Source: Bacteroidota bacterium
GTDB lineage: Bacteria; Bacteroidota; Ignavibacteria; Ignavibacteriales; Ignavibacteriaceae
Length of the DNA stretch: 6,182 nucleotides
Direction: 5' to 3'
Assembly: GCA_021793635.1 (NCBI GenBank)
Contig: JAJYSI010000219.1
Span: forward strand, 1-6,182
This document shows, in pieces, positions 1-5,567 of the stretch. The notes under the pieces are model-generated. The model was not told the origin of the DNA. It ran no database searches and worked only from the letters and a program-made list of their open reading frames with translations. The position numbers and the translations under genes are program-made. Position 1 is the first letter of the stretch. Each line of letters begins with the position of its first letter.

Positions 1-522
1 TAAACTCGGCGTTAGTGCATCTGGTTTGTTCTTTGAGTAAGTTCTTTTTACGTTTCTTAATAACTCATAAACATCTAATAAACTTATCAAATGTATCCGA
101 ACCAATGTAGCTATTGTAGAGAATGCTTTCTTTACACTTGCGATTTTCTGTAATACAGTCAGTAATAATTGGGCTATTAGTGTACACAATCCGCCGAAGG
201 CGGATTGTGTTCTGATTGCATTTTCGTTTTCACCATAAAAGTAATGTAACTGAAAATTTTGCTTCATCTTCTTGAACAGTAGTTCTATTTGCCAGCGTTT
301 CTTATATATAAATGCTACTTCTTCGGCCGTTATATCAAAATTATTTGTTATAAATACAAATTGACGCATCTTCTCATCTATATAGTGTCTGGTCGTAAAG
401 TCTAATTTGAATTTGTCGTTGAGTGTTCTGTAAGAAGCATTTTCCCTAAATGAACTTACTATACTTCTAATTTTTGATGAAAGTAATTTATTATCCTTTT
501 TATTTCCATGTCTTTTACATAG
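1..522 (-). pseudogene. IS4-family transposase, C-terminal half, running off the left edge
   Basis: Read on the minus strand from 522 down to 1, one frame stays open for 174 codons with no credible start codon. It contains FVFITNNFDITAEEVAFIYK followed by KRWQIELLFKKMK. The latter supplies the IS4 Y-(2)-R-(3)-E-(6)-K signature: Tyr at 304-306, Arg at 295-297, catalytic Glu at 283-285, Lys at 262-264. A hydrophobic stretch (LCTLIAQLLLTVLQ) and the usual helical tail (VRIHLISLLDVYELL) follow. These families are normally about 380-400 residues with a DDE core. The N-terminal part and both catalytic Asp regions are absent here, and upstream of codon 1 is a TAG at 523-525. Five residues (SAFGG) between ENAIRTQ and LCTLIA look inserted and are encoded by a perfect palindrome. 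The missing N-terminal half is probably the one at 4852-5445. IS4-family assignment is firm; the exact left breakpoint near 470-525 is not. Confidence 0.88.
184..210. repeat. Perfect 12-bp palindrome inside the IS4 transposase remnant
   Basis: ACACAATCCGCC, loop GAA, GGCGGATTGTGT: a perfect 12-bp stem with a 3-nt loop. It is read through in frame by the transposase remnant as TQSAFGGLC. The family normally goes straight from RTQ to a short hydrophobic stretch. The central 15 nt (190-204) therefore look like an in-frame insertion into the self-complementary site ACACAATTGTGT. The palindrome is directly visible; the insertion reading rests on remembered family alignments. Confidence 0.75.
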
Positions 523-4653: not shown

Positions 4654-4848
4654 TTGAAGTCGCACACGACTCCGTTTGCGGAGTTTATGCAATATATATC
4701 AAGCAATATAAGCTATTTGCTTGAGTTAAATTACTTAAAAAATAAAGAGCGCGATAAATTATTAGTAAAGCATATTTCATATTATTGTGCTTATGAGCTA
4801 AGGACGGATCGAATGAATTATAACCAATTATTAATAAAATTAAGTTGA
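4654..4848 (+). CDS. Small hypothetical ORF with a palindromic element at its start
   Basis: The frame is open from 4651 to TGA at 4846-4848. Two starts are possible. TTG at 4654 has AGAGG 11 bp upstream and gives 64 residues whose first residues (KSHTTPFAEF) are palindrome-encoded. ATG at 4687 gives 53 residues: MQYISSNISYLLELNYLKNK, then ERDKLLVKHISYYCAYEL and RTDRMNYNQLLIKLS. The latter part has the look of a real helical protein, but I recognise no family. With the ATG, the GGAG of the palindrome lies 3 bp upstream and inside a hairpin, which would be a poor ribosome site. Deleting the 24-nt element would give LKFMQYIS from the TTG. It lies 18 bp after the 197-residue gene and abuts the IS4 remnant, so it may be the leftover end of a longer gene. 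Confidence 0.45.
   Translation: MKSHTTPFAEFMQYISSNISYLLELNYLKNKERDKLLVKHISYYCAYELRTDRMNYNQLLIKLS
4658..4684. repeat. Two-hairpin palindromic element, copy A
   Basis: AGTCG-CACA-CGACT (4658-4671) overlaps by three bases with ACTCCG-TTTG-CGGAGT (4669-4684). The 24-nt core 4660-4683 matches copy B (5261-5284, opposite strand) at 23 of 24 positions; the one difference is in the first loop (CACA vs CATA). The core has no stop in any of six frames. Confidence 0.88.
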
Positions 4849-4851
4849 CGC

Positions 4852-5445
4852 CTATGCGCAAAACGGGACTACCGACTGAACTGCATCTATTAGCATGTGT
4901 ACCTTTAATCCGCCCTTCTTCTTTCCGTCATTCTTTGGATTTCTGCCTACTCCCTTTAGTATATCGCTAAACAGTCTGATTGTTGTTGAATCTATTATCA
5001 ATAACTCTTTGAATGTTAAGCCGTATGTCCGGCTGTCCGACATAAATCCCTTATACTGCTCGACAAGCTTATAATATAATGCCTCAAAAAATGAACTATC
5101 CCGGTTTCTTAATCCATCTGATGCAGTACTTTTTGCCGGCGACTTTTGCATCCCGAGATGATTTAGCTTACCGCCTAACGCCTTCATTCCATCGCATATT
5201 TCAGCCATCGAATCGCATCTACTCAATATCCCAAATAGCATTACTATCAACTCGTCCCAGCTCCGCAAACGGAGTCGTATGCGACTCTTAAAGGCTTTAT
5301 AATAGTAATCGCTTTTCTTTTCTCTTACTAACTGAGCAAACGTTGACTTATCTATCAATTTCATTATTTGTCCGAAAATCGGCTGTCCGGCAAAATTTAA
5401 CTGCCCGACTTCTTCATTCAGGCGGGTTTCCGTATCTTTGTTCAT
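4852..5445 (-). pseudogene. IS4-family transposase, N-terminal half
   Basis: Starts at ATG 5443-5445 and reads 197 codons to TAG at 4852-4854. The head LNFAGQPIFGQIMKLIDKST and SWDELIVMLFGILSRCDSMA match the DUF4372 N-terminal domain of IS4-type transposases. AKSTASDGLRNRDSSFFEAL and the first catalytic Asp in ELLIIDSTTIRLF (D152) follow, then KKKGGLKVHMLIDA. Homology ends at VVPF, where relatives continue for another 200 residues with the second Asp and the Y-R-E-K box. The last few codons (CA, stop) belong to the junction. Eight residues (RIRLRLRS, 55-62) between FKS and WDEL appear inserted and are encoded by the two-hairpin element. The C-terminal half at 1-522 has the same strand and the correct order. 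A hairpin lies in the leader at 5491-5514. Confidence 0.9.
5261..5286. repeat. Two-hairpin palindromic element, copy B, inside IS4 transposase
   Basis: On the plus strand CTCCG-CAAA-CGGAG (5261-5274) overlaps AGTCG-TATG-CGACT (5273-5286). It is inverted relative to copy A. The transposase reads it as eight extra residues between FKS and WDEL. GAG occurs both just before the element and at its end on the coding strand, so the insert length is 24 nt, a multiple of three. Confidence 0.88.
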
Positions 5446-5490
5446 GTCGTTCTCTTGTTTGTTTTTGTCTACAACAAAATTACGACTTAC

Positions 5491-5525
5491 GGGAGCTACT
5501 TCTTAGTGGCTCCCTATATTTTTTT
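5491..5525 (+). terminator. Strong hairpin plus T-run upstream of the IS4 transposase
   Basis: GGGAGCTACT-TCTT-AGTGGCTCCC (10-bp stem with one G-T pair) is followed by TATATTTTTTT. On the plus strand this is a textbook intrinsic terminator, yet no plus-strand gene ends nearby. On the minus strand the same inverted repeat sits in the transposase leader, 46 bp before its ATG. IS10 and IS50 use similar leader structures to block translation from read-through transcripts; the same role here is inference. Confidence 0.7.
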
Positions 5526-5567
5526 GTCGGTTAGTAGTGATTTTATTTAAAACATAAAGACGACTTA

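Follow-up and report, generated by a model that had tools for sequence, protein, structure and literature searches.

The window, by which we mean the whole analysed stretch of 6,182 nucleotides, contains N- and C-terminal parts of one type of IS4 transposase (IS4-a), a remnant of an IS200-like transposase, two copies of a 24-bp element and several other hairpin-forming stretches, which are arranged as follows.

1–369, minus strand: C-terminal part of an IS4-a transposase (DDE_Tnp_1), continuing beyond the window edge
190–204: second hairpin, TCCGCC-GAA-GGCGGA on the plus strand and TCCGCC-TTC-GGCGGA on the minus strand, in frame in the IS4-a C-terminal part, net +12 bp
719–946: Y1_Tnp fragment (Pfam match), the IS200-like remnant
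731–746: single hairpin ACCCCG-TTTG-CGGGGT in the IS200-like remnant, similar to the element's second hairpin apart from a compensated change in the stem
4,658–4,684, plus strand: copy 1 of the 24-bp element (27 nt counting the AGT ends), detected as an inverted-pair match
4,852–5,445, minus strand: N-terminal part of the IS4-a transposase (DUF4372), cut off at 4,852, with 92% amino acid identity to locus L013 (contig C52 of genome G001) over residues 14–195
5,260–5,286, minus strand: copy 2 of the element, in frame in the IS4-a transposase, adding RIRLRLRS, with a 24-bp gap in relatives
5,400–5,426, minus strand: 27-bp extra stretch CCCG...CGGG, an imperfect palindrome in the transposase N-terminus, absent in 11 related loci

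The two transposase parts (1–378 and 4,852–5,541) are of the same IS4 type, in the same orientation and 4.5 kb apart, and about 310 bp found between them in L013 are missing from the window. They are either two fragments or parts of a single IS, with 4.5 kb of other genes in between.

The two copies of the element form a 26-nt inverted pair (4,658–4,683 on the plus strand, 5,261–5,286 on the minus strand) with 25/26 identical bases, confirming the near-identical pair reported in the preliminary description, and their sole mismatch (C/T) falls in the first loop. The 17-nt core common to both, CGACTCCGTTTGCGGAG, matches the window twice at up to three mismatches and appears in none of 200 dinucleotide shuffles, on which ground a chance repeat was rejected. 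Copy 2 lies in the part of IS4-a that carries the DUF4372 domain (Pfam), and the eight extra residues described between FKS and WDEL are indeed present there. Copy 1 is located 3' of a 197-codon ORF and overlaps a 64-codon ORF (4,654–4,848, TTG start). This small ORF has no Pfam match, and no other sign of its being a gene was seen. The left flank of copy 1, GATATTGAAG, shares 10 identical nt with the left flank of a copy in a different IS4 transposase (IS4-b) of G001; because this flank is common to both, copy 1 may stem from the same insertion event, surviving here in a relic.

Comparison with related loci distinguishes occupied from empty sites in both transposases. At the copy-2 site, L013 reads TTCAAGAGT directly followed by TGGGAC, and the window has 24 extra bases at this junction. 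The 24 bp are missing in 9/9 IS4-a loci that cover the site (18 loci aligned), one of which, L015, has a second gap beside the 24-bp gap. At the protein level, the eight residues are absent in 118/119 other homologues, the remaining one not covering the site (120 listed of 782, one of them the window itself). In IS4-b (L004), a third copy is embedded as GATATTGAAG, TCGCAAACGACTCCGTATGCGGAG and TTTGCC in succession, a clean 24 bp in frame, and 10/10 relatives aligning on both sides are without it (19 aligned). The 24-mer is thus clearly an insertion at two sites; it is a dispersed element that has moved, in line with the insertion put forward earlier, and not transposase family sequence. The opposite reading, ordinary IS4 family sequence with a chance likeness, is refuted by the empty IS4-a and IS4-b loci and the homologue comparison; with the core also absent from the shuffles, we give it practically no credence.

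Counted from AGT, the first base of the element falls on codon position 1 in IS4-a and on codon position 3 in IS4-b, and the encoded residues vary with the phase, being RIRLRLRS in the former and the VANDSVCGV region in the latter. AGY flanks both ends at the two sites with a known empty counterpart, where the net gain is exactly 24 bp each; these flanks would fit a 3-bp duplication of the target as well as a preference for certain targets. Occupied and empty versions of orthologous genes, clean insertion, whole-codon length and two coding phases of the 24-mer are thus directly seen.

The genome sets searched for the 24-mer, which lack the window's own source genome, yielded four copies in three genomes (G001, G014 and G015), with at most two per genome, so that the element is rare in these sets and a high copy number finds no support there. 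G001 contains two (up to three mismatches). The order-wide search (164 genomes, up to two mismatches) gave matches in these three genomes, and the class-wide search (391 genomes) gave accepted copies only in G001 and G014. A scan of genome contigs returned four matches, L001–L004, of which L004 alone was accepted; L001–L003, from Planctomycetaceae, Deltaproteobacteria and Rathayibacter records, differ in their second loops and were taken as chance. By judgement, a match in G216 (three mismatches; unrelated loops) was likewise taken as chance, and 25/28 places in the class-wide match list were set aside, their loops being unrelated and the reversed control giving 9 matches. Viral contigs contain no exact match to the 18-mer CGACTCCGTTTGCGGAGT, and viral carriage was rejected.

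Three of the four copies in the searched genomes, namely the second G001 copy and those of G014 and G015, occupy a single orthologous site 5' of a gene (L005, L007 and L008) that looks like a lipoprotein gene. An ATG follows the element after about 35 bases in G001 and G015, and none occurs within the 65 bases after it in G014. In all three genomes an open reading frame continues from the element into the downstream gene, so the upstream copies might themselves be coding; an effect of the element on expression of the lipoprotein-like gene is also possible. L184 resembles this locus and is without the element, but its gap is larger, so it is not a clean empty site.

Retention of the upstream site in three genomes, and the spacing to the ATG in G001 and G015, would suit a functional nucleic-acid element (a regulatory RNA hairpin, a terminator or a protein-binding site) that homologous exchange has spread and that is maintained because it has a function. 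Against this stand the two sites within transposase reading frames, the stem changes in the upstream copies, the missing ATG in G014 and an Rfam search of the window at gathering scores, which found no known RNA family. We therefore regard a retained function of this kind as quite unlikely.

The fold of the element was evaluated with DNA energy parameters on six variants. The two hairpins proposed in the preliminary description do share the three bases ACT, so both cannot form fully at once, and copy 2 ends in C, which abolishes the outermost pair of its second hairpin. They compete with an alternative fold, one imperfect hairpin (CGCAyACG-ACTC-CGTtTGCG), with energies of –6.2 and –6.2 kcal/mol for the window copies and –6.3 kcal/mol for the IS4-b copy, whereas the most stable of the alternative folds scored has –6.1, –5.5 and –6.1 kcal/mol. 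The single hairpin is slightly more stable in these 3/6 variants, less stable in the other three (the upstream-site variants), and within 1 kcal/mol of the best alternative in 4/6. In G014 and G015, the second hairpin is intact (–6.1 kcal/mol) and the single fold drops to –0.1 and –4.2 kcal/mol, respectively, which somewhat favours the two-hairpin view; the G001 upstream-site variant is weak in every fold scored. Differences between the IS4-b copy and the window copies are confined to loops, except for the last base of copy 2, whereas the upstream-site copies (G001, G014 and G015) carry changes within stems.

The single fold is also what an excision scar or a maximally deleted derivative of a larger transposon might leave, with CGCAyACG/CGTtTGCG as terminal inverted repeats, ACTC as the joint and AGT as the target duplication. 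The inverted repeat, imperfect (7/8 pairs) with a 4-bp centre, and the AGY at either end fit this origin. No longer element with the same ends was seen in scans that targeted the short form only and that a longer one would have escaped. Such a scar would need an identical internal end point at each of three unrelated sites, and we consider it unlikely, if less so than the other alternatives weighed here.

Both window copies are free of stop codons in all six frames, as had been reported. Random double hairpins built in the same way are just as open in 27% of cases, and base shuffles in 9%, and the G014 copy has a stop in one of six frames. Because roughly one random double hairpin in four is equally open and the G014 copy is not, openness in six frames alone is weak evidence, and at a rate of 27% in the random set we have given up the argument from it. 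Of the earlier suggestion that the repeat can enter genes in any frame without ending them, the differing phases hold; the stop-free property has little distinctive about it.

The second hairpin in the window extends to a full palindrome at 184–210 (–10.9 kcal/mol, z –5.8). Its site is empty in 5/6 related loci that cover it, and the sixth, L073, has the hairpin with the loop reversed (GAA). Here the insert and its flanks make a perfect palindrome with a 12-bp stem, and the flanking bases differ from those of relatives toward pairing, as would be expected if hairpins were made locally, by template switching or quasi-palindrome correction in replication, and were not mobile repeats. Yet neither an identical 24-mer in unrelated genes nor one TCCGCC...GGCGGA stem at 978 places can be templated locally. 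Local templating is contradicted for the core sequences and could still shape the flanks; as a general account of these hairpins we hold it to be very unlikely.

Those 978 places of TCCGCC-NNN-GGCGGA, whose loop is free in sequence, are spread over 102/160 genomes of the order, compared with 5 for the reversed-pattern control. Phase was counted for 80 sites in 70 loci (L123–L152 and L223–L262; 35 G090 loci excluded) on the longest open frame, a choice that favours coding-looking frames. On this basis, 30/80 sites count as internal to an ORF of 200 codons or more. All but one of them (29) are in phase 0, which reads Ser-Ala-X-Gly-Gly; when tandem pairs are joined, the count is 24/25 internal sites. 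One dominant phase is thus directly seen. The other 50 sites fall in short frames or close to ORF starts, including eight near-start sites, not scored as internal, with five in phase 2, two in phase 0 and one in phase 1. Because the other phases of the hairpin give Arg-rich or Pro-containing peptides, a single dominant phase may be the remainder to be expected after selection.

Type IX secretion tails, identified by motif count, contain 18/30 of the internal sites. In L109 (G001), the tail reads VEF[SAGGGSASGG]NAS, compared with five insert-free tails among the loci examined. Pfam recognizes Por_Secre_tail in L109, L235 and L152; in L243 and L131 it gives no Por_Secre_tail match, and the tail motif was read by eye. 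Further Ser-Ala-X-Gly-Gly stretches occur in an FGE-sulfatase (L126) and, near the ORF start and hence outside the 30 internal sites, in a NuoL-like protein (L244) and a primase (L255). Judging by the usual sequences of their families, these three would be inserts.

G090 contains 84 copies of TCCGCC-NNN-GGCGGA. In its loci (L188–L222), 22/36 places lie inside a longer repeat, ggtcatcccccatcac...gtgatttccccc, in which the 3-base loop varies freely, and none of the 36 is within an open frame of at least 150 codons, for which reasons these loci were kept out of the phase count.

The most informative test comes from oxygen-independent coproporphyrinogen oxidase (HemN), which has two sites with Ser-Ala-X-Gly-Gly-like inserts. 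In L226 (G006), SASGG stands in place of a single residue in L242 (G007), the proteins being otherwise identical at 420/463 positions; the insert was checked at the DNA level for these two loci alone. Among 121 sequences (the query plus 120 listed of 8,000 scored), five residues replace one at site 2 in 11 and are lacking in 110, and the insert at site 1 is present in 6 and lacking in 111, the other 4 having one extra residue. The insert residues are variable (SADGG, STEGG and STMGG), which looks like decay of the inserts. Each HemN insert is a net gain of four residues, the same as that of the TCCGCC insert in IS4-a.

The best explanation, and one we hold to be probable, is that the 24-mer is a mobile repeat, very short and non-coding, which forms hairpins and whose surviving copies lengthen genes by whole codons. 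It would have inserted independently at three, perhaps four, separate places, namely IS4-a, IS4-b, the site 5' of the lipoprotein-like gene and perhaps copy 1. It would move in folded, single-stranded form, either through a hairpin-recognising enzyme acting in trans or through a replication error. The leading candidate enzyme would be a Y1/HUH transposase of the IS200/IS605 or RAYT type; Y1 transposases favour hairpins, which is the basis of this guess, and the Y1_Tnp fragment in the window proves no functional link to the element. Insertion itself may be blind to frame, with selection retaining survivors that keep whole codons and no stop, and survivors inside transposase genes would be carried along by the IS.

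The 24-mer may further be part of a larger set of short hairpin inserts present across the order, chiefly TCCGCC-NNN-GGCGGA; we infer this single population from common behaviour, not from common sequence. A bolder proposal is that the order holds several families of codon-sized mobile hairpins, among them TCCGCC-NNN-GGCGGA, the 24-mer and probably further ones, that spread through genes, even those of core enzymes such as HemN, and leave in-frame linker-like peptides (Ser-Ala-X-Gly-Gly). Because a single TCCGCC insert gives a net +12 bp in HemN as well as in IS4-a, as if five codons had replaced one, a single undescribed insertion mechanism might underlie them. We advance this only tentatively, as a possibility that we would not bet on.

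Intraprotein palindromic repeats are best known from Rickettsia, and intragenic REPs from other groups. As described in excerpts of PMC10969869, the Rickettsia palindromic elements are about 150 bp long with a conserved encoded peptide. The analogy drawn to them in the preliminary description is apt, since in both cases palindromic repeats lie in frame in protein genes, here with empty relatives found for the 24-mer. However, the present element measures 24 bp (15–30 bp for its TCCGCC sibling), the peptides of the 24-mer change with phase, and the lineage, judged by the names attached to some homologues, is Bacteroidota/Ignavibacteria-like.

GTAG/CGTC REPs are short (20–40 bp) stem-loops, often paired and some within ORFs, and CGTC repeats are known from Chlorobi and Bacteroidetes (Di Nocera et al. 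2013, PMC3733652, in excerpt). They resemble the element in being short, partly intragenic stem-loops and differ in their tags, the 27 nt of the element containing neither GTAG nor CGTC on either strand. Mitochondrial double-hairpin elements, according to excerpts of PMC2800124, are short dispersed hairpins, some in tandem, at times within genes without frameshift and retained in the transcript, and coding palindromes are reported from nematomorph mitochondria (PMC6649704). They share with the present repeats a short, dispersed and sometimes intragenic character without frameshift, but are organellar, whereas here the carrier is bacterial (G001 is a 4.5-Mb Bacteroidetes bacterium MAG) and the hairpins overlap by three bases. 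MITEs are likewise small non-coding mobile DNA, but at 70–300 bp with terminal inverted repeats of 15–30 bp (as described in the excerpted PMC3733652) they are far longer than the insert described here, which is 24 bp in its entirety.

In the titles and abstract openings of open-licence literature, nothing was found on these repeats in Ignavibacteria. The systems above show that in-frame palindromic inserts are already known; the present ones differ in size, in lineage, in lacking the REP tags and in their repeated steps of whole codons. Outside the phylum of Rickettsia, inserts of 12–30 bp are here met repeatedly, in transposases, in sorting domains and in one or more core enzymes, and they may account for odd short insertions in the predicted proteins of these bacteria. 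HemN, with occupied, decaying and empty versions together, would allow the seeding of protein loops by selfish hairpins to be measured directly.

Other hairpins are present in the window and in G001. At the site of the 27-bp stretch (5,400–5,426), L073 carries another hairpin insert, of 21 bp; both are open in the frame of the gene and have stops in two of six frames each. The 731–746 hairpin has the CCG-TTTG-CGG core found in the element and lies just beyond position 726, where similarity to contig C122 of G022 ends. Over 480 kb of G001, 81 hairpins were counted, some of them twice under two loop lengths, compared with 5 in one resampled control, and they include several repeated families. 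Among its loci (L083–L122) are a 34-bp hairpin family, AAACCTCCGAGGTTT-AGGA-AAACCTCGGAGGTTT, with 13 copies in the 480 kb, and families with covarying stems, e.g., CCCACGACTTGAAGTCGTGGG and CCCACGAATTCTATTCGTGGG. Palindromes of the CCTGCCTGCCGACAGGCAGG type lie near open-frame ends in L102 (position 3635) and L099 (position 9365), where they read PACRQAG/PACWQAG.
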